Part shown: positions 2,633 to 59,126 of the stretch, in pieces
Position numbering within the stretch: position 1 is the first letter of the stretch
Layout: each line of letters starts with the position of its first letter
From: a virus
IMG/VR virus record: IMGVR_UViG_3300027668_000008
Location: 186,001 to 250,000 of that record
Direction: 5' to 3' (one strand)
DNA length: 64,000 nucleotides
The notes under the pieces: model-generated
Databases searched by the model: none
Told to the model about the DNA's origin: nothing
What the model saw: only the letters and a program-made list of their open reading frames with translations
Translations under genes and position numbers: made by a program

Positions 2633-3373
2633 TTAGTCTAGTGTCCATACTGTATCTCGTGATCCGTTTTCAATTAATTCTCGTGTTTTATCAGATTTTA
2701 ATCCTGTAATTTGAATAACTGATCTCGGATAACTGCTTGTATTAGCCGTTGCGTGTGGTACATTGGGCCAATCAAAAATATGTGCTTCGCCGGCTTTCCA
2801 ACGTTCGTATACACAATTACCATACATATAAAATTGACCAGGCTTCCAATCATCTAGGAAAAATGTAATACGACATACTTGCTCTGGGTCATCTAAACAA
2901 CGATCCCATAACTTATCAATATGCAAGTTAAACATTTGTCCAGTTCGTTGAACGTGTGAACGTGCTTTAAATTCGTCTACTCCACCAATAATGCCAAAGT
3001 GTTCTTTCATTTTGATAAGGGTTGGGTAGTCGTCTAACTCGTCGGTCATGTCAGTTAACATTAAGTTTTTAGGATCACCGCCGCCTTTTGCAATATCATG
3101 TTCTTCTTGTTTTAACATTGGAGATTCTACTTCACTCTCTCCATAAAATTTTCGTGTTTGCCAGTTAATAGACTTATTAGAATTTTCAATTAATCTGTTT
3201 TTATCGTCTGACCAATCACCTTCAAAACGACCTAGAACTTTGAACCATTCGCCTTCCTTATCAATAATATTATCATCAAAGTGATACTCGCTGTGTGCTA
3301 CTGTCCAATCCCAACTACTTTCGTATTTGTCTGCAGGTTGTAAAGTTTTATTCCATTTTGTTTTATTATACAT
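2633..3373 (-). CDS. 2-oxoglutarate/Fe(II) oxygenase
   Basis: 246-aa cupin-fold dioxygenase. Iron ligands are H151-x-D153 (LHIDKLW) and distal H207 (VPHATANTS). R217 (YPRSVIQITG) is placed to bind the 2-oxoglutarate carboxylate. The AGEAHIFDW strand resembles the aspartyl/asparaginyl beta-hydroxylase branch. It would hydroxylate a protein or small molecule while converting 2-oxoglutarate to succinate. Its ATG overlaps the TctA stop by 8 bases, so it is coupled to a carboxylate transporter gene. A transporter supplying its co-substrate is an attractive but untested idea. Confidence 0.75.
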   Translation of the reverse strand: MYNKTKWNKTLQPADKYESSWDWTVAHSEYHFDDNIIDKEGEWFKVLGRFEGDWSDDKNRLIENSNKSINWQTRKFYGESEVESPMLKQEEHDIAKGGGDPKNLMLTDMTDELDDYPTLIKMKEHFGIIGGVDEFKARSHVQRTGQMFNLHIDKLWDRCLDDPEQVCRITFFLDDWKPGQFYMYGNCVYERWKAGEAHIFDWPNVPHATANTSSYPRSVIQITGLKSDKTRELIENGSRDTVWTLD

Positions 3374-4874
3374 AATCTATTCCTTTATCTTTTCTTAATA
3401 CGCTGTTTAAAAATATGCCAACAGCGATTATAATACAAACTAAAAATATAGGGTGATTGTAAATATTAAACAATTCTCCCCATCTAAATCCTTCCATAGA
3501 AGTTAGTCCTGGTTTCCACTGTTTGTATCCGTATAACTGTAGTGTTCCCCAAAAGTATTCATCAATCTTAAATGCTACAACATATGCAACAAGGATTGCT
3601 GGTCTACTAATGTTAAATTTCTTACATACTACACCAATTGCACTTAAAATAGTTAACAAGGCTAAATCTTCCCAACCACCTGTATACTGCATATTTGCGT
3701 AAACAATTACTGCTAAAATAAATGTTGCATAAATCCAAAAAGGAACTTCTAATATTTTAAGAATATACTTGTACAGAAAAATACTTAATAGTGCTACACC
3801 AATTGTTCCAAAGATATAACCAAATGCTAAACTGTTTGTAAATTGTAAATCATCTAGTAAACTTGGTGTACCAATTTCCATACCAAAGTACATACAAATT
3901 GCCATAACCATAGCCGCAAATGGTGCCGCTGGAATTCCAAATAACACTGCTGGTATCATACTAGATACTTTTTGTGCATTGTTGGCTCCTTCACAACCTA
4001 GTAGTCCTACAGGGTTACCTTCTCCAAATGGAACTTCTTGATCTTTACCTTTGTGTGCGGCTTTAGTGGCACCGTATGCTAAAAAGTCTCCTACTGCTCC
4101 GCCTACACCTGGTAATAGTCCAGTAACGAACCCAATTAGTCCTCCACGAACCATGTCTTTCCAATGTCGTCTACAATCGCCGAAGCCTTGCTTTAAACCT
4201 TCAAAATAGTTTCCTTCTATTGGTGGTGCCGCTGATTTTAATCCTCGTCTAAATCCATCTAATAACTCCGGAACTCCGAATAGTCCTGATAATAAAACTA
4301 CCATGCCAATTCCGTTTTGTAGATATTCCCAACCAAATGTTAGTCTAGGATTACTTACAACATCTTCGCCTACCATACCTACTGCTAATCCAAATATGAT
4401 TGCACAGATACTTAAAAATATATTTTTACTTGCCACAAAGCCTACACAGGCTAGGGCCATTGTCATGAATCCCAGAAACTCTGGACGTCCAAATAATACG
4501 ATAATCTTCCCATAATAAGGAAGTAAAAAGAAAGTTAATGCCGCGAATATAACTCCATTAAATGTAGAGTCAGTAATAGCAATTCCCATTGCTCTTGCCG
4601 CCTGGCCTTTCTTTGCCATTGGATAACCATCGATAACACAAGCCGCTGTTGTACTAGCGCCTGGTATACCTGTTAGAATACTTGTATAACTATCTGCACT
4701 GGCACAACTTGCCACGATTGCAGTCAGAAAGACCAACCCCAAATAGGGGTCAGCCATAAAGTACGCTCCCATGCTAAAGACAGTTATCAGGGCGGTAGTT
4801 ACACCTGCAATAGGTATAATACCAACTAGCATTCCATACATGGTGCCAATTAATGCCCAGATAACATAATCCAT
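3366..4874 (-). CDS. tctA: TctA-family permease of a tripartite tricarboxylate transporter
   Basis: 502-aa polytopic inner-membrane protein of about 11-12 segments. Family hallmarks are clear: GIPGASTTAACVIDGYPMAK near residue 90, a second glycine-rich motif LLPGVGGAVGDFLAYGATKA near 258, and N-terminal VGIIPIAGVTT. TctA is the large permease subunit that moves a carboxylate delivered by the periplasmic TctC protein. Length is normal for the family. The small subunit TctB usually lies between tctC and tctA, but here only about 10 bases separate them, and no TctB-like four-helix protein is seen in the cassette. The host would have to supply it, or the system works without it. Confidence 0.9.
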   Translation of the reverse strand: MDYVIWALIGTMYGMLVGIIPIAGVTTALITVFSMGAYFMADPYLGLVFLTAIVASCASADSYTSILTGIPGASTTAACVIDGYPMAKKGQAARAMGIAITDSTFNGVIFAALTFFLLPYYGKIIVLFGRPEFLGFMTMALACVGFVASKNIFLSICAIIFGLAVGMVGEDVVSNPRLTFGWEYLQNGIGMVVLLSGLFGVPELLDGFRRGLKSAAPPIEGNYFEGLKQGFGDCRRHWKDMVRGGLIGFVTGLLPGVGGAVGDFLAYGATKAAHKGKDQEVPFGEGNPVGLLGCEGANNAQKVSSMIPAVLFGIPAAPFAAMVMAICMYFGMEIGTPSLLDDLQFTNSLAFGYIFGTIGVALLSIFLYKYILKILEVPFWIYATFILAVIVYANMQYTGGWEDLALLTILSAIGVVCKKFNISRPAILVAYVVAFKIDEYFWGTLQLYGYKQWKPGLTSMEGFRWGELFNIYNHPIFLVCIIIAVGIFLNSVLRKDKGIDYV

Positions 4875-4884
4875 ACTATATTCC

Positions 4885-5940
4885 TTACTTTAAAAGTTCT
4901 GGTTTATAGATTGATGGAAAGCCGTATGCTTCTTGATTCCACTTAACCGCATCTTTAAGAGCTTTTTCTGTAATCAAAGATTTCAGTGCCGCTAGTAATG
5001 ATGGACCGTCTTGGATCCAAGGATAAACACCAGTCTTAGCATAAATTTCTGCACTTGCAACTGGATCATTAATCATCTCAGTTACAGCCGCTTTAACTTT
5101 TGCCGCATTAGGGTTACCTTTGTTCATCCAAAGTGATTTTTGAATTGCATCACGCCAATTACGAGTAAGTTTATATGCTTGATATAATTCACCTGCTGGA
5201 CGTTCGCCCCATAAGTTCTCATACACATCTTCGAATTGTGTGTTTGGAAAGTTTGGATCTGCAATTTGTACATTGTTTTCTAAGTCTAGAATACCGTGTG
5301 TGAACCAAAGTTCGTTACCTTCGATACCTGTGTAAAAACGTTTCCATGCCGCCGGACTTTCACGTGCAATATCAAATTCGCCGTTTTTAAATCCAAGACG
5401 CTTTTCTCCGCCTGATACACCGTTAACCCAGATAACACGTTCTCTCCAACAAGCCAAGTATGCTTCGATTGAACCTTCTGGTTGTGGACCACATAGCAAC
5501 ATTGCCGCCGCCGCCGCATCTGGTTCAAAACCTGATCCGCCTGCGATTGTCCAAGTGCCGGATTTTTCATCCTTGCCTGCTTGTTTACCTAAAACGATAT
5601 CATTGTTCATTGAACCAATTAGTTCATAATCAAAGTAATCGTAATCTACTTTATCTAGTAGATATGATACACCGTTACCACCATGTGCTACCATAATCGT
5701 TTTGTCATCAAAACGTAGGTCATTGTGGAATTTGTTAAAGCCAGGAATATCACGTGCCCCTGGAATATGGCGTACCACTACTGGTTCACCGATAAACTTT
5801 TCCAAGTTTTTCGCAATAATCTCGCCCCATACAGAAGTACCTTTACCAGGTGCTTGTGGAACAATTAGTGTATAATCAGCGAATGCTGATGTGGCAATAC
5901 TCATCGAAAGTACTGCTGATATTAGTAGTTTTTTAAACAT
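4885..5940 (-). CDS. tctC: TctC-family periplasmic solute-binding protein
   Basis: 351 aa with an N-terminal signal peptide (MFKKLLISAVLSMSIATSAFA, cleavage after SAFA). The mature part opens YTLIVPQAPGKGTSVWGEII and continues with VVVRHIPGARDIPGFNKF. These match the LVVPFAPGGxTD and VVVENRPGAGGxxG segments of TctC/Bug proteins, which bind carboxylates in the periplasm. Ribosome site AAGGAGA sits 6 bases before the ATG. It is the first gene of the seven-gene operon that ends at 518. A complete signal peptide shows that the product is meant for export in the infected cell. Confidence 0.88.
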   Translation of the reverse strand: MFKKLLISAVLSMSIATSAFADYTLIVPQAPGKGTSVWGEIIAKNLEKFIGEPVVVRHIPGARDIPGFNKFHNDLRFDDKTIMVAHGGNGVSYLLDKVDYDYFDYELIGSMNNDIVLGKQAGKDEKSGTWTIAGGSGFEPDAAAAAMLLCGPQPEGSIEAYLACWRERVIWVNGVSGGEKRLGFKNGEFDIARESPAAWKRFYTGIEGNELWFTHGILDLENNVQIADPNFPNTQFEDVYENLWGERPAGELYQAYKLTRNWRDAIQKSLWMNKGNPNAAKVKAAVTEMINDPVASAEIYAKTGVYPWIQDGPSLLAALKSLITEKALKDAVKWNQEAYGFPSIYKPELLK

Positions 5941-25760: not shown

Positions 25761-25768
25761 TATTTATA
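25761..25768 (-). promoter_or_regulatory. perfect late promoter box TATAAATA overlapping a stop codon
   Basis: TATAAATA on the minus strand, 24 bases before the ATG at 25736. The TAA within it (25764-25766) is also the stop of the permease gene. Confidence 0.6.
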
Positions 25769-26801
25769 TGAAAAGCATTGCTCCGGCAGTTAGTATAACC
25801 AAACTACCCCAAAGCCCGAGTATGGTAGCATAATAACGCAATTTGGTACCAAAGTAAAGCATTCCTATTGCCACGCACTTGTGCATTGGACTAATCAAAT
25901 ATCCTACAAAGTCTACTGCAAAGAACCACGGCAAATATTCTATACCATATATAGTTGCCATAATAACTGTTAATGCACCAAAACGTGAACTACTTCCTAA
26001 TGCAAATGCACCGGCAAAACTAGCCAAACTTAACATAGTAAACCCCCAAAGAGTGTTAATGTCAAGTCCACTTGTTTCTAAAAATGTTTTAATTTGTTCT
26101 GTATTTTCTCTAGCAATATTTGCCGCAATAATGATAAGTGCGACCCAGCCAATTAGTCTAAAATCAACATAGCCTAATAACTTCTTGATGTTAAAAGTCT
26201 TTGTTACAAGTATGTAATAAGCAGTTAAAGATCCAAATACCCACATAAAGTCTAGTCCGGCAATAATACCGCCCACACCTGCAACGTAGGGAAAAACATA
26301 TCTAGTTATTCTACTAACTTTAATTTCTGTTCCGCAGTCACCAATTTCAATATCACTTTCTTTTACACCCCATACCAAGTATGAAATAATAAAAATAAGA
26401 GATACTGCTAACAAGGGCCACATCATTCCCATAAATTGTCCGTATGAGATACCAAACGCCGCCATTGGTAAAATAACTGTTTTCTCTAACGGTGACCAGA
26501 AATAATAATGGTGTGTACTTACATAATCAATAGGACCAAACTTATCTCTACCACAACACCCTTTGTCGGGTGCCATAGTTTCGAGCATTCCTGCACTCAC
26601 TGTAACCCTTCCTTTAATAGGAAGTATGCCTGTTAATGCACTCACTATTGCTACAACAGATTTTTTACTTTTTAAATTTTGTTCAAAGAAACAAAACAGA
26701 TCCTTAAATAATCCATTTTCTTTTACCATACCTGCAATCATCATTACAAATACGATTAAAAATAAATATATTTGACCCTTTAATATTAAGTCAATAATCA
26801 A
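25764..26801 (-). CDS. DUF401-like integral membrane transporter
   Basis: 345 aa with about nine hydrophobic segments. ALTGILPIKGRVTVSAGMLE recalls the LPMPGGALFSAP loop of DUF401/ion-transporter-superfamily permeases, and YLISPMHKCVAIGMLYFGTK recalls their SPxHxCLVxxxEYF loop. It would lie in the inner membrane and move an unknown solute, probably an anion. The start is TTG in a TTGA overlap with the upstream stop (26798-26801). The gene is embedded in the late fibre operon, so the protein should be made late. Confidence 0.6.
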   Translation of the reverse strand: MIIDLILKGQIYLFLIVFVMMIAGMVKENGLFKDLFCFFEQNLKSKKSVVAIVSALTGILPIKGRVTVSAGMLETMAPDKGCCGRDKFGPIDYVSTHHYYFWSPLEKTVILPMAAFGISYGQFMGMMWPLLAVSLIFIISYLVWGVKESDIEIGDCGTEIKVSRITRYVFPYVAGVGGIIAGLDFMWVFGSLTAYYILVTKTFNIKKLLGYVDFRLIGWVALIIIAANIARENTEQIKTFLETSGLDINTLWGFTMLSLASFAGAFALGSSSRFGALTVIMATIYGIEYLPWFFAVDFVGYLISPMHKCVAIGMLYFGTKLRYYATILGLWGSLVILTAGAMLFI

Positions 26802-46052: not shown

Positions 46053-46244
46053 TTATTTGTTATGATGTTTAACTGATAAATGCTTGAGTATTTTACCTGC
46101 ATTTTCACCAGACTTAACAGTGTAGCCAGAGGTTCCTCCTGCATTAACATCTACTTCTGATCTGCTTTTTTGAAGTAATTTATCTATGCGGTTTTTCTCT
46201 GCCTGCTTACTATATGCTGTAAGCATATGTGTATGTCGGCCCAT
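46053..46244 (-). CDS. small basic hypothetical protein
   Basis: 63 aa: MGRHTHMLTAYSKQAEKNRI then LLQKSRSEVDVNAGGTSGYT, ending KHLSVKHHNK. Start placed at the ATG at 46244 because AAGGAGGG lies at the right distance; a GTG two codons upstream falls inside that site. The very strong ribosome site supports it as a real gene. No family recognised. Lies between gp23 and the 150-aa gene. Confidence 0.55.
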   Translation of the reverse strand: MGRHTHMLTAYSKQAEKNRIDKLLQKSRSEVDVNAGGTSGYTVKSGENAGKILKHLSVKHHNK

Positions 46245-46356
46245 AATCACCCTCCTTATTAAAGTTAGGTGCGTTCCTTCGCTATTGCTACTTCCGGCCT
46301 CAAAGGCTGAACGTTGTAAAATTATTTAGTCATAATATCTGAGTTTTTACTCAAAA

Positions 46357-52906: not shown

Positions 52907-55327
52907 TTAAGATTGAAGTTTTACTATGTGTCCAGTTTGCCTGTTCATTTTCTTTAATTCTACAAGTAATTCAGCATTATCTGAACCTGTGCCTTGTATT
53001 TGTATAAGTTTTTCAACACTTTTAGTAAGGTTTACTATAGGTCCCATGTCCATATCCACTGGTATATTTCTGCCATTCGGTAACGGAACAACTGCTTCAT
53101 TAGTAGCACCTTCACCGATCATTGAAAGTGTGGGCTGTTTAATAATGCCTCCATCTTCAAAACCAAACTTATTTGCAAACCAACCGCCTATTTTCTTACC
53201 AGCGGAATCTCCGCCTATACTACCTAAAACACCACCAATAATACCACCAATAGCAGTACCAACAATTGGAACAAATGATCCTATCATGGCACCTGCCGCT
53301 ACACCACCTAAAGTACCAGCAAAGTTACCAGCCGCTGAGCCAACACCTTCCATTGCTTTACCTGTAGTGGTCTCTTGCTCACTAGTTGCCGCTGTAATAC
53401 CACCAGATGCTAACGCACCCAATATTGGTATCTTTTTAAGAATTCCGCTTGCCACTTTAGTAATAATACTTCCACTACCTGCCGCAACTGCTTTAGTACC
53501 CGAACCTGCAAGACTTGCCGTTGTTTTTACTGCTTCTGTTGTTGCTTTAGCACCTGCGCCTACCACAGTAGCAGTTGTTTTCGATGCCGCAACGGCAGTT
53601 TTTGTTGCAGTGTCTATTGCTGTTTTAGTGGCTTTAGTTGTTGCAACAAGTGAATTTGCCACAGTCTTAGATGCAGTTGCAAATTCGTCTGCGTGTTTAA
53701 CTGCCATTTGACCTAAAGTTTTAGATGCATTGTTTGCCGCTTTTGCGAACCCACTTGCCGCACCGCCTGCCAATACAACATTGTCTTTAAAGTCGGTTAA
53801 GGCTTGTTTCTCTTCTGGTTTCATTTCAACACCGTCAACTAAATCTTTTAATTTGCCAACGATTGTTCCCATGCTTCCAATAGCCGCTTCAGCAACTTTG
53901 TTCATTCCAAGTCTTGTTGTTTTACCTAAGTCCTCGACTAACATTTGTGTATCTTTTACAGTTTTAGTTTCTGGTTCAGGTTCAGGTACTAATGACTTAC
54001 TGTAAGCATCCATGTCACCTTTAAATTTTTCACTAATAACTTTGTACTGTTGGTTAACGCCTTGTAGTGCTAGTACACTTTTGTTCATTTGGTCTGCTAT
54101 TGGACTAAATCCTTGTAAGTCACGCATTCCTTTGAACTGGCTATTTTGTGCATCATAAACTGCACCCATTCTCTTAACAACATCCTCTGACTTAATAGTA
54201 CCTTTACGCATTGAAAGACCAAGTTTGTTAAGCTCTTCTCCCATCGGACTTTGTAATAGTAAGTTACCTTCTGCTGTTGCACCTACTGTTAGTCCTTGCA
54301 TACCACGAAGAACAAGATCCATTGCTCCTGGTACATCGCCGAATTTATCTCTTAATAGCTCTAATGAATTTCTAGTATTTGTGTTTCCTGTAACAGACAT
54401 TTCAGATAACATTAATTCAATGTTAGCCTCTTGTTTGTTTCTTGCCATTTTTTCTGCAAGAGCTTTTCTGTCTTGTCCAGTTAGTGTAGCAAGTTTTGTA
54501 ATTTCTTCTGAATAGTTTGCCGCCGCCATTGCTTGTTGTCTAGTAGACATATTTGCAAATGCAGTATTACGTTGTTGCATCGTAATATATTCGCCGAGCA
54601 TTTCAGCACTTTCTTCAGCACTGATACCTAAGTATCTTAATTTGTCACGTGATAGTTCATTCATTGCGACATTAATGTCTACAAATCGTTTAGCACCCAA
54701 TCTAGCAGTACCACCAAAGACAGCCAAACTTGCTGAGTTTTCTCTAACGATTCCTGTAAAAGTTTCTAATCTTAAATAACTTGCCGCCGCGGCTTTCTCA
54801 ATATCAAATAAGTTGCCGGAAAATGCCGCACCACTTCTGGATAGTTGGTCAAATGAATCTGATAAGTTGGCTGTATGAGCAATAACGGCTCCGCCTGCGG
54901 CACCTAATGCGCCTCCGGCATATGGTATTGCACTTGCTAATTTGTCAACGGCAGTACCCATGTCTCTCATGTTTAGTCCAACGCCGGCTGTACTTGCACC
55001 AAATTTAACAACGTCTTCAACTGCTCCCATGACTTTATCAGCCATGCCTCCTAGTTTTGAACCAAAACTACCAGCACTTTTTCCCGCATCGTCTAATTCT
55101 TCTGCTAAATCGTCAGCACTTTTAGTAAGACCTTTAAGCTCTACATTGAGCTTTTTGCTACTTTTCGCTTGTTCGTTGGTATTCTTAAGAGCATCTTTAA
55201 AACTCTTGGCTCCAGTAGAACCAGAAGATGATGCTTCCATTTTATCAACAAGTCTCTTTAATGTTTCTTCAGTAGCAACATTATTAAGTGTGACTGTATT
55301 ATTGTCTATGTCTATTTCAACTGCCAT
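52907..55327 (-). CDS. tail tape-measure-like protein
   Basis: 806 aa. Extended helical protein with a hydrophobic Gly/Ala-rich region (residues about 660-735, LGGVAAGAMIGSFVPIVGTA), then the FEDGGIIKQPTLSMIGEGAT and EAVVPLPNGRNIPV end found in many tape-measure proteins. Coiled-coil N-terminus; a helical Ala/Thr/Lys stretch at about 545-625. Tape measures set tail length and enter the cell envelope; the T4 counterpart is gp29 (590 aa). Divergent from gp26, as tape measures often neighbour tail chaperone genes. Confidence 0.7.
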   Translation of the reverse strand: MAVEIDIDNNTVTLNNVATEETLKRLVDKMEASSSGSTGAKSFKDALKNTNEQAKSSKKLNVELKGLTKSADDLAEELDDAGKSAGSFGSKLGGMADKVMGAVEDVVKFGASTAGVGLNMRDMGTAVDKLASAIPYAGGALGAAGGAVIAHTANLSDSFDQLSRSGAAFSGNLFDIEKAAAASYLRLETFTGIVRENSASLAVFGGTARLGAKRFVDINVAMNELSRDKLRYLGISAEESAEMLGEYITMQQRNTAFANMSTRQQAMAAANYSEEITKLATLTGQDRKALAEKMARNKQEANIELMLSEMSVTGNTNTRNSLELLRDKFGDVPGAMDLVLRGMQGLTVGATAEGNLLLQSPMGEELNKLGLSMRKGTIKSEDVVKRMGAVYDAQNSQFKGMRDLQGFSPIADQMNKSVLALQGVNQQYKVISEKFKGDMDAYSKSLVPEPEPETKTVKDTQMLVEDLGKTTRLGMNKVAEAAIGSMGTIVGKLKDLVDGVEMKPEEKQALTDFKDNVVLAGGAASGFAKAANNASKTLGQMAVKHADEFATASKTVANSLVATTKATKTAIDTATKTAVAASKTTATVVGAGAKATTEAVKTTASLAGSGTKAVAAGSGSIITKVASGILKKIPILGALASGGITAATSEQETTTGKAMEGVGSAAGNFAGTLGGVAAGAMIGSFVPIVGTAIGGIIGGVLGSIGGDSAGKKIGGWFANKFGFEDGGIIKQPTLSMIGEGATNEAVVPLPNGRNIPVDMDMGPIVNLTKSVEKLIQIQGTGSDNAELLVELKKMNRQTGHIVKLQS

Positions 55328-55337
55328 TATATACCCA

Positions 55338-55345
55338 GATAAATA
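55338..55345 (+). promoter_or_regulatory. late promoter box GATAAATA for gp26
   Basis: GATAAATA on the plus strand, 56 bases before the gp26 ATG. Faces the minus-strand box at 55383-55390. Confidence 0.5.
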
Positions 55346-55382: not shown

Positions 55383-55390
55383 TATTTATC
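55383..55390 (-). promoter_or_regulatory. late promoter box GATAAATA for the tape-measure gene
   Basis: GATAAATA on the minus strand, 55 bases before the ATG at 55327. Both leaders cross the dyad ATAGTG-ATAA-CACTAT (near 55359-55374). Confidence 0.5.
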
Positions 55391-55401: not shown

Positions 55402-56235
55402 ATGGAAAACAATCAAAACCCTTTGGTAGGGTATTTTCGTAAACCAGAAGTTTACTTGTCACTACCTAGTAAGGGAAAGTACTACAAACATGGTGTTTTA
55501 GACTTGCCACCTAACGGCGAACTTGGGATTTTCCCAATGACTGCTAGGGACGAGTTAGTCCTAAAAACACCAGACGCATTACTTAACGGTGCAAGTACCG
55601 TTGAAGTGATACAAAGTTGTGTGCCTGCTATTAACAATGCTTGGGAAATTCCTAGCATTGATATGGACACATTATTAATCGGTGTGCGTATTGCCACTTA
55701 TGGTGAGCAAATGGACATACAAATCGCTTGTAATAAGTGCCAAACACAAAACGAGTTTGGAATCGACTTAACTGCATTAATGGATCAGACTAAGGACTGG
55801 AAGTTCGAAGAAGATTTGGAAATTGGTGATTTAAAACTTACATTTAAACCACTAACTTACCAAGAACTAAATGCTGAAAGTTTGCGTAACTTTGAAGAAT
55901 CAAAGATTATGAAAATCGTTAACAACGACAGTCTAGATGATGAAAAGAAACGTGAAATGTTTCAAGATGCATTCTTAAGACTTACTGCATTAACAGTTGA
56001 CTTAATTGGTAAAACAATATGTAAAGTTGAAAGTCCAAATGGCGTAACTGAAGACAGAGCTCACATTGCTGAGTTTGTACAAAATGTCGACAGAAAAACA
56101 TTTAGTGCAATACAAGATCATCTAGATGGACAAAAAGATAAGAACTCTTTCAAACAGTTTGAAGGCGAATGCACTAATTGTGAAGCACATTTAAGTACTC
56201 CAATTATGTTCGACAATTCCAATTTTTTCGCCTAA
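55402..56235 (+). CDS. 26: gp26-like baseplate/tail assembly protein
   Basis: 277 aa. FRKPEVYLSLPSKGKYYKHG, LGIFPMTARDELVLKTPDAL, VEVIQSCVPAINNAWEIPSI and DTLLIGVRIATYGEQMDIQI are the T4 gp26 family signature. Two cysteine pairs (CNKC, CTNC) could hold zinc. Start taken at 55402 because GGAG lies 7 bases upstream; an ATG at 55378 has no ribosome site. gp26 is needed for baseplate hub assembly. The last codons contain a U UUU UUC slippery heptamer followed by GCC TAA, leading into a -1 frame of 76 codons. Adjacent to the tape-measure gene, like lambda G. Confidence 0.85.
   Translation: MENNQNPLVGYFRKPEVYLSLPSKGKYYKHGVLDLPPNGELGIFPMTARDELVLKTPDALLNGASTVEVIQSCVPAINNAWEIPSIDMDTLLIGVRIATYGEQMDIQIACNKCQTQNEFGIDLTALMDQTKDWKFEEDLEIGDLKLTFKPLTYQELNAESLRNFEESKIMKIVNNDSLDDEKKREMFQDAFLRLTALTVDLIGKTICKVESPNGVTEDRAHIAEFVQNVDRKTFSAIQDHLDGQKDKNSFKQFEGECTNCEAHLSTPIMFDNSNFFA
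56223..56229 (+). promoter_or_regulatory. -1 ribosomal frameshift slippery site
   Basis: Heptamer T TTT TTC in the correct phase of gp26 (codons AAT TTT TTC GCC TAA). After a -1 slip both Phe tRNAs re-pair with TTT TTT and reading continues CGC CTA AGG. A weak stem (GTCTC/GAGAT, near 56246-56263) lies downstream. Confidence 0.6.
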
Positions 56236-56459
56236 GGCTTCTGAGTCTCGCTAACGATGAGATCGGACAGTTAGTTAAAGACTATGACAAGGAAGCCCAA
56301 AATCTTAAAAAAGAATTGGTGAGAATAGTATGGTATATGAGAGGTGGAATACACTTGGATCAAGCCTATAACTTGTCACGGAATGATATGAAGGATATAT
56401 CTGGTGTTATCGAAGAGAATATTAAGACAACTCAGAAAACTGGATTACCTTTAATCTAA
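56229..56459 (+). CDS. 51: -1 frame extension of gp26 (gp51-like tail chaperone domain)
   Basis: 76 codons from the slip site to TAA at 56457-56459. Sequence runs RLRLLSLANDEIGQLVKDYD, then a Lys/Glu helix, WYMRGGIHLDQAYNLSRNDM, and ends TQKTGLPLI. The frame is closed upstream (TGA near 56180) and has no ATG until codon 38, so independent initiation is unlikely. Frameshifting would give a 352-aa gp26 fusion. In T4 gene 51 (hub assembly catalyst, absent from the virion) follows gene 26. The short gp51-like protein of marine T4-like phages has this location. Codons and composition are those of a real protein. Confidence 0.65.
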   Translation, partial: RLRLLSLANDEIGQLVKDYDKEAQNLKKELVRIVWYMRGGIHLDQAYNLSRNDMKDISGVIEENIKTTQKTGLPLI

Positions 56460-56602
56460 TATGTTCATGACTATACATTATAATCACTTACATCCATAAA
56501 CATTTTATAAGATTACTAAAAGATATACTTCGTATATCTAATAACTTCACTATCGTTCGTTATTAATTTTCTTTTAGAGTTTTTAGTAGATAATACTATT
56601 AA

Positions 56603-56631
56603 TTGAATAACTGAATATTAAACAATATACT
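56603..56631 (+). promoter_or_regulatory. sigma70-like promoter of candidate small RNA
   Basis: TTGAAT (56603-56608), 17-base spacer, TATACT (56626-56631); start expected near 56638. The region is AT-rich, so chance matches are possible. Confidence 0.35.
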
Positions 56632-56637
56632 TTTAAT

Positions 56638-56855
56638 ACATATTAAGTATAAGAGCGAAGCGATAGTCATCATGTAGATTGTTTCAGTCAGACGGAACCA
56701 CTTACGGTTCCGTCAAATGCCTTCATGTGAGTTCGCCACAGCCCGACTATTGGAAGTAAGTATTTTATCGCAACTCTATGGGTTCTAGTCTTTCCCACAC
56801 TTACACTGATCCTACTTTCGTAGTCTATTTCCTCGTTCCGATTGAAATAGTTTTT
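56638..56855 (+). ncRNA. candidate structured small RNA
   Basis: About 218 bases bounded by a promoter-like pair and a terminator-like hairpin. It contains a perfect 9-bp hairpin (GACGGAACC-ACTTAC-GGTTCCGTC, 56691-56714) and possible longer-range pairings (ATAGTC with GACTAT, GCGATA with TATCGC). No tRNA T-arm or tmRNA motif. Family unknown. Confidence 0.35.
56825..56855 (+). terminator. terminator-like hairpin
   Basis: CTATTTC (56825-56831) pairs with GAAATAG (56844-56850), followed by TTTTT on the plus strand. It could end the candidate RNA and read-through from gp26/gp51. Confidence 0.45.
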
Positions 56856-57060
56856 AAGAGTTATATGCGTTTGTCATACGTTAGCAATCGTACTATACTA
56901 ACCGGTGAGCCCAATTTGTTTGATGGCTTCCACACTCTGGTGTGTTGATCGGTATGTTGCGTGTGTCCCTTTACGGGTACTTTTTCCACAGTGGATAGTT
57001 AAACTGGCCCACTAACCTTATGTGCTAATTGATTTGCCATAATGATTGCTGATTTTGTGC

Positions 57061-57570: not shown

Positions 57571-57784
57571 TCTTCTTCCTATGTATGTTTAATAGTAACA
57601 CCTTTTGGTGGTACTCGTCAATCTTTTTTTCTGCATAGAAAGGAAATAATGTTGGAACAAAACCGTGTATGATGCTAATGATACCTGTAAGTATCAAATC
57701 CAATCCTGCCACGACGGCAAACTTGGTATGCTCATAATAGGTCTTTCCGGCTTCTTTTAGATGTGCCTTAATTGCCCTTTTCAT
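57539..57784 (-). CDS. small membrane protein, DUF6356-like
   Basis: 81 aa: HLKEAGKTYYEHTKFAVVAG then a transmembrane helix (LDLILTGIISIIHGFVPTLF, about residues 28-47) and a basic C-terminal tail (KNAKQAKSKRK). The HLKExxxTYxxH pattern recalls DUF6356. Found in many marine phages; function unknown. Overlaps the genes on both sides (17 and 32 bases), so translation is likely coupled to the AMP-forming ligase upstream. Confidence 0.6.
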   Translation of the reverse strand: MKRAIKAHLKEAGKTYYEHTKFAVVAGLDLILTGIISIIHGFVPTLFPFYAEKKIDEYHQKVLLLNIHRKKNAKQAKSKRK

Positions 57785-59126
57785 AGATTCCCTTTAACTT
57801 ATTGATGTTCGGCTTTCCTAGAACGTTAAGCTCGATGTGTGTAACTAATTTATCCACCGATATACCGTTGTCAGCCAACTTCTGAACTAACTGTTTTACA
57901 TTCACGTCTTTATGTTGCATAACCACTACAACGTGTGTCTGAGATATGCTAAACACACAACAGTATCCTTCTAACCAATTTGGTACAAGTTGTTGTGGAT
58001 TGATTAGTTGGTCGTCAATTCTTATTAAGTCGCTATTGCGTTTTTCAAAATAAAATGTATCTGCGTCAGCACTTACAATATCTTGAGTAACAAATATATC
58101 TATAGATTCATCATTAATGCTTTTGCACATATGACTACTACCTTCGATTGTAAGTATCTCATTTTCGTTAATATCGTAACTGCCTGTGTTGTCGACTATA
58201 CTTCCCATTTCTTTACTATTATACAAGTCTAAGTTGTGCTTGTCAACGACTTTATGTATTAAAGGTGGTAAACATTCAGTAAGTCCATATATTACTGCAA
58301 CTTTTTCTACGCCTTGATTCTTAACCAACCTTCTAATAAACGAATTGTCTATTACACTACCGCCAGTTAAAACCCATTTAACATAATCAAAGTTACGCAA
58401 GTGTATTCCTTGCTTTGCATATGATTGAAAATGCACCGGAAAAATTAACATCATATCCGGTTTGTACTTGTCTAAATCTTCTGCGTTATAAGGATTGTCT
58501 AGTCTAGGTAGTACAATCCGTTTACTTGAAAACAATGCAGGAAAAAAGTAAACACTGCTCACACCTAAGTGAACAATATTATGGAAAAACCAACTTGTGT
58601 TTGCTTCTTTCCAATAAAGTCTTATACTGTCGTCTGTTGCACTCTCTACACTTTTATGAGTGTGTTGTATGCACTTAGGTACTCCAGTACTTCCACTTGT
58701 TAATGCTTCTATTAAAACTTCCGAATGATCGATGATATAAGTTTCAACACCTTCGAACATATCTTCAGTAACACTTATGTCGTCTAAATCTAAGTGAGTA
58801 CAATTATCAGCATGAATAGTACATGGGTGTATACCACGTGTTATCATTGCTTTAATATTTCTACTAGATGTGTATTCATTTGTTATTTCGTGTTCTCCAC
58901 TTATAACAATAATAAGTCCATAATCAATAGCCGCAAAAACACAGGCAAGGTGATGAAAGTCTTCTTGCATTGCAAGTCCAACTCTATCGCCCTTGACTAG
59001 GTTATTGTTCAAGAACAGTTGTTGGTACCCAGAAGCAAATCGAGATAAACTCTCTTTAGTCAACTGGGTACCGTTAATTAGATCAACTATTTCAAAATTA
59101 TTAGATAACTTTGTAATAGATATCAC
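57768..59126 (-). CDS. AMP-forming acyl/aryl ligase (ANL superfamily)
   Basis: 452 aa. Phosphate-binding motif EALTSGSTGVPKCIQHTHKS near residue 137, a YGLTECLPPL motif near 275, the hinge segment YFEKRNSDLIRIDDQLINPQ near 355, and the C-terminal lysine motif VLGKPNINKLKGIY. All core elements are present, so it is likely active: it adenylates a carboxylate, then passes it to CoA, a carrier or an amine. Slightly short for the family; no carrier domain attached and none seen nearby. Start appears to be GTG (59124-59126). Embedded between a 58-aa gene and a membrane protein in the gp47-gp46 operon. Confidence 0.82.
   Translation of the reverse strand: MISITKLSNNFEIVDLINGTQLTKESLSRFASGYQQLFLNNNLVKGDRVGLAMQEDFHHLACVFAAIDYGLIIVISGEHEITNEYTSSRNIKAMITRGIHPCTIHADNCTHLDLDDISVTEDMFEGVETYIIDHSEVLIEALTSGSTGVPKCIQHTHKSVESATDDSIRLYWKEANTSWFFHNIVHLGVSSVYFFPALFSSKRIVLPRLDNPYNAEDLDKYKPDMMLIFPVHFQSYAKQGIHLRNFDYVKWVLTGGSVIDNSFIRRLVKNQGVEKVAVIYGLTECLPPLIHKVVDKHNLDLYNSKEMGSIVDNTGSYDINENEILTIEGSSHMCKSINDESIDIFVTQDIVSADADTFYFEKRNSDLIRIDDQLINPQQLVPNWLEGYCCVFSISQTHVVVVMQHKDVNVKQLVQKLADNGISVDKLVTHIELNVLGKPNINKLKGIYEKGN

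Follow-up and report, generated by a model that had tools for sequence, protein, structure and literature searches.

In a large T4-like phage, a gp26-like gene is followed in the -1 frame by an open reading frame that lacks a start codon at its beginning. The locus raises the question of whether this frame is translated as an extension of the gp26-like protein by programmed -1 ribosomal frameshifting, as a sequence-only reading of the DNA had proposed, and of how such a pair of products would relate to gp26 and gp51 of T4.

Organization of the locus

The window, that is the whole stretch of DNA analysed, is 64 kb long and corresponds to bases 186001-250000 of a 306,714-bp IMG/VR virus record. 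Profile search showed that a T4-type portal and a major capsid protein are encoded in the window, and the source virus is a large T4-like phage of the jumbo type. The features of the locus are listed with window coordinates, strand and basis.

55402..56235 (+): gp26-like protein, 277 aa, from ATG at 55402 to the TAA ending at 56235, proposed short tail assembly chaperone (TAC-N); PF12322, phrog_150
56223..56229 (+): slippery heptamer T_TTT_TTC in -1 frameshift phase; sequence, kept in relatives
56230..56235 (+): 6-nt spacer including the 0-frame stop TAA (56233-56235); sequence
56229..56459 (+): C-terminal domain in the -1 frame (TAC-C), 76 aa plus stop, proposed frameshift-only product; ORF, selection, homology
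56236..56242 (+): 5' arm of an RNA stem, GGCTTCT; predicted pairing
56291..56297 (+): 3' arm of the RNA stem, GGAAGCC; predicted pairing
52907..55327 (-): probable tape-measure protein, 806 aa, divergent from gp26; weak similarity
55338..55345 (+): T4-late-promoter-like octamer GATAAATA upstream of gp26, tentative; motif match
55383..55390 (-): T4-late-promoter-like octamer GATAAATA facing the probable tape-measure gene, tentative; motif match

The gp26-like protein matched PF12322, the N-terminal part of tail assembly chaperones, at 2.2e-17 and phrog_150 ('baseplate hub') at 1.4e-17, and it is the only phrog_150 copy in the whole 306,714-bp record. In a viral library the matches with a functional name were mostly T4-type baseplate hub proteins. 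The predicted TAC-N fold had no significant match in the PDB, which leaves it with no structural tie to lambda- or HK97-type chaperones; a PDB sequence search likewise gave no significant match. A ribosome-site-like GGAG lies upstream of the gene. The frequency of the GATAAATA octamer across the whole window was no higher than chance. Beyond the -1 frame, about 600 nt (56460-57060) contain no long ORF, and no Rfam match, tRNA or inverted repeat was found in them.

The sequence-only reading had placed the chaperone beside the tape-measure gene. The 806-aa neighbour gave PHROG tape-measure matches, partly of low complexity, and about 100 aa of it matched the gene that follows the chaperone genes of cyanophage Syn1 (blastp 1.9e-6). 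A gene of 734-1130 aa occupies the same place in relatives. These weak similarities suggest that the neighbour is probably the tape measure. It lies on the opposite strand to the gp26-like gene and is divergent from it. In cyanophages Syn1 and MED4-213 a long gene lies directly after the chaperone gene on the same strand.

Several other elements were observed elsewhere in the window. A glutamine riboswitch (RF01739; 46268-46315, minus strand; 52.6 bits, cut-off 35) lies directly after the major capsid gene and before a short ORF (46053-46250), which is unusual within a phage head-gene cluster. At 3366-5940 on the minus strand, a TctA-family tricarboxylate transporter permease (PF01970, 1.1e-86) adjoins a 351-aa protein that had no Pfam match and resembles a TctC-type binding protein by eye; the pair may represent host-derived transport genes in a phage. 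An AMP-binding enzyme (57768-59126, minus strand; PF00501, 2.3e-23) is located between RusA/PDDEXK-like and gp46-like genes, and a membrane protein (25764-26801, minus strand) matched DUF401 at 2.1e-7.

The slippery heptamer and the -1 frame

The gp26-like gene ends AAT TTT TTC GCC TAA, which places T_TTT_TTC in the X_XXY_YYZ phase needed for a -1 slip; the position and phase given in the sequence-only reading were exact. After such a slip the next codon would be CGC at 56229, the first of 76 sense codons (56229-56456) ahead of a stop at 56457-56459. From stop to stop the -1 ORF spans 56184-56459, and the frame is closed further upstream. No ATG, GTG or TTG was found at the head of the ORF, and its first ATG lies 36 codons beyond the shift. 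The open frame to 56459 and its closed, start-less head had both been described correctly beforehand.

TTTTTTC is common in this AT-rich DNA, and the window contains 22 copies of it as against 28.6 expected; the heptamer count was rejected as evidence. It is the phase and conservation of the heptamer, not its mere presence, that exceed chance. The junction was examined in a set of 91 entries consisting of the window, 12 close-to-moderate relatives (40-100% identity), 80 loci from an alignment search that partly overlap the 12, and four jumbo phages (Atu_ph07, Phosso, 121Q and PA5oct). The heptamer in phase, together with the -1 ORF, was present in all 91 of these IMG/VR and jumbo phage entries, which hold 72 distinct C-domains; one contig (L097) ends inside the -1 ORF. 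Both Phe codons of the shift site were invariant among the unique sequences (TTT in 72/72, TTC in 72/72), whereas TTC usage at other conserved Phe columns was only 16%. T_TTT_TT[C/T/G] in phase, followed by a -1 C-domain, was also found in 12 further named phages ranging from cyanophages to schizoT-evens (S-PM2, Syn1, MED4-213, Melnitz-3, S-CRM01, phiM7, Astolliot, RHph_Y68, PC-Liy1, Aeromonas phage 65, GAP32 and XaC1).

The 0-frame stop lies 3, 9, 12 or 18 nt past the heptamer in the 91-entry sets and 0 to 33 nt past it in the 12 further phages. The fact that the heptamer is fixed while the stop varies from 0 to 33 nt indicates that conservation acts on the slip site and on neither the stop nor a start. 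Ackermannvirus pertopsoe (L128 near 2307) and Vibrio phage D506 (L127 near 2235) have a -1 C-domain-like ORF after gp26 with no X_XXY_YYZ heptamer, which suggests another slip site or another mechanism in these two phages.

The C-domain could also be made as a separate protein by translational coupling, with ribosomes re-initiating at the gp26 stop. In the fetched records it is annotated as a separate small gene or left unannotated. In 6 of the 72 unique sequences, including Atu_ph07 and Phosso with their ATGA overlaps, the -1 frame offers an ATG one codon beyond the shift, so that re-initiation is possible there, and the annotated start of 121Q is at a TAATG junction. The window, however, has CTA at this place, most relatives have ATA or another non-start codon, and the first ATGs of their -1 ORFs lie mostly 14-36 codons into the domain. 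The expected absence of a gp51 start was seen in the window and most relatives and failed in those six. The heptamer also stays invariant where the stop has shifted 12, 18 or 33 nt away, which argues against coupling, and we regard coupling as an improbable account of the locus beside -1 frameshifting.

Downstream stem, selection and proposed translation

In the window a predicted RNA stem, absent from the sequence-only reading, begins 6 nt after the heptamer. The null model was obtained by shuffling the -1 ORF synonymously; under it the window clade gave a median p of 0.013, the window's own stem being modest (fold z about -1). Stems at p<0.05 were obtained in 17 of 32 sequence clusters (binomial 2e-14). 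Most of the significant stems have spacers of 3-6 nt, and the arm sequences differ between lineages, for example GGCTCTTTGT/ACAAAGAGCC in Atu_ph07 and GACTCCTT/AAGGAGTC in the L073 locus. A significant stem was lacking in about half of the 32 clusters, several cyanophages among them, which shows that it is not a universal feature. In one clade (A6), analysed at fixed geometry, two inner pairs show compensatory changes, both partners being exchanged between A-U and G-C, pairing was found in 93% of cells as against 34-50% for slid partners, and the covariation score was reached by none of 500 shuffles. A second clade (A7) at fixed geometry gave modest or weak, consistent covariation, with 18 of 500 shuffles reaching the score. 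In the window clade the 3' arm shifts its position from one lineage to another, for which reason column-based covariation testing was confined to these two clades of fixed geometry. A search of the locus against Rfam found no known frameshift element. The results are consistent with the stem being the downstream element of the frameshift cassette and a putative stimulator.

Slippage of the RNA polymerase on the T6 run would yield some mRNAs with one extra U, in which the -1 frame is read. The run is present and is lengthened to T7 in Melnitz-3 and phiM7, but six T residues are a short run for polymerase slippage, and the seventh base is nearly always C though T would favour the process. The kept X_XXY_YYZ phase and a stem with a 3-6 nt spacer suit ribosomal frameshifting instead, and transcriptional slippage is less probable still than coupling.

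Purifying selection acts on the -1 frame at the protein level. Pairs of relatives gave omega values of 0.06-0.35 for the -1 ORF, comparable to those of gp26, and across 72 divergent sequences the -1 frame contained no stops, as compared with 484 and 463 in the two remaining frames. The AlphaFold2 model of TAC-C was all helical (pLDDT 84). A chance overlap or decayed former gene with no product would suit the fetched records, which never annotate the -1 ORF as part of gp26, yet with omega well under 1 and zero stops its probability is negligible.

The heptamer, the -1 ORF under selection and the stem form a standard -1 frameshift cassette, and the locus very probably specifies a tail assembly chaperone in two forms, the longer of which arises by programmed -1 ribosomal frameshifting. 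On this central point the comparison, through the phase of the heptamer in 91/91 entries and selection on the -1 ORF, supported the sequence-only reading. Most ribosomes would stop at the end of gp26 and produce TAC-N of 277 aa. A minority would be held by the downstream stem and move back one base on U_UUU_UUC, the Phe tRNA shifting its pairing from UUC to UUU; reading of 76 more codons in the -1 frame would then give gp26-TAC-C of 352 aa (276 through TTC plus 76). Slippage and its rate are inferred here. By analogy with lambda G/GT, the chaperone may bind the tape-measure protein, probably the product of 52907-55327, with the short form coating it and the rare long form bringing the tail tube to it. 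The cassette is clean and testable.

Relation to T4 gp26 and gp51 and to other chaperone loci

The sequence-only reading had taken gp26 and gp51 to be the T4-type G/GT pair. In T4 itself they are not a frameshift pair, as gp26 (115802-116428, minus strand) and gp51 (116479-117228, plus strand) are encoded on opposite strands and both are full-length PF12322 proteins (5e-63 and 4e-52). In the phrog_150 alignment gp51 extends to position 280 of 282 and gp26 only to 235, which indicates that gp51 comprises a gp26-like part and a C-terminal domain. The counterpart of the -1 domain is only about the last 50 residues of gp51. Direct profile comparison of window-type TAC-C alone with T4 gp51 or cyanophage TAC-C gave no significant match. 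Cyanophage-type TAC-C matched the gp51 C-terminus (E 5.8e-8), the cyanophage-type fusion matched nearly all of gp51 (E 2.6e-18), and the window-type fusion matched the cyanophage-type fusion (E 4.2e-18). Linked stepwise in this way through cyanophage homologues, TAC-C is probably related to the C-terminus of gp51. What stands of the G/GT proposal is a short and a long chaperone with a -1 domain related to gp51; it does not extend to T4, where the genes are separate divergent paralogues with no frameshift.

Frameshift phages have one phrog_150 gene and T4-type phages have two; the two phrog_150 matches of S-PM2 are its N-part and its -1 domain. The tree, with a midpoint root only, placed gp26 and gp51 as sister clades (support 86/76) beside the frameshift lineages. 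Together with the stepwise fusion-gp51 matches, these results suggest that the two chaperone forms, which this phage and others would obtain by frameshifting, come in T4 from duplicated genes, with gp26 as the short form and gp51 as the long one. As for the direction of change, we lean slightly towards frameshifting, with a near-invariant U_UUU_UU(C/U/G) and a stem in many lineages, being ancestral in the T4 superfamily and the T-even line having swapped to duplication. One T4-type IMG/VR genome (L117:1060-1822) carries a gp51 gene that is interrupted by a change of frame and by an in-frame stop; the gene may be broken, or the sequence may contain an error.

A chaperone role is supported for gp26 and gp51, classic but poorly understood T4 assembly proteins. 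The short/long pair would be reached by two routes, namely duplication in T4 and frameshifting in the majority of the T4-type lineages covered here. In cyanophages, rhizobial phages and jumbo phages, the annotation of small 'gp51' or hypothetical genes behind gp26 should be corrected to show them as frameshift extensions of gp26.

The slippery site of lambda is G_GGA_AAG. The window differs from lambda in its U_UUU_UUC site, its 277-aa N-part and its probable tape-measure gene on the other strand, with no link to lambda found in sequence or fold, and shares with it the heptamer logic and, as proposed here, a short and a -1 extended form near a probable tape-measure gene (PMC5009743). Lambda G and GT, produced at roughly 30:1, attach to the tape measure, recruit the tail tube and are absent from the virion (PMC5009743). 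The chaperone locus of Vandenendeviridae/Andersonviridae has a GTTTTT site (PMC12846349); it resembles the window in a -1 frame open past the end of TAC-N and a polyT slip site, the likeness being one of locus layout between different phage families. The two T4 proteins, gp26 and gp51, are counted among the chaperones of hub assembly, gp51 being required and absent from the particle (PMC3004832). They are paralogues within PF12322, the family of the gp26-like protein of the window, and gp51 corresponds end to end, via the cyanophages, to the frameshift fusion. Unlike the pair proposed for the window, they are separate and divergently transcribed with no frameshift, and gp51 is full-length with its own start.

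Vladimirov and colleagues reportedly named gp26/gp51. The idea put forward for this locus is not new: T4-like tail assembly chaperone genes were identified by Vladimirov, Gautam and Davidson 2022 (Virology 566:9-15), a study that is cited in PMC12846349 (2025) for polyT slippery sites in the TAC-N genes of T4-like phages. As far as the title of that study and the citing text go, its T4-like chaperones resemble those proposed for the window in having two forms, of which the longer carries an additional C-terminal domain, and the window differs in being from a particular new jumbo-type phage with a divergent probable tape-measure gene; the downstream stem and its covariation come from the present analysis. 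The locus is a well-supported new example of a widespread frameshift trick of T4-type phages, the outline of which had been published before.
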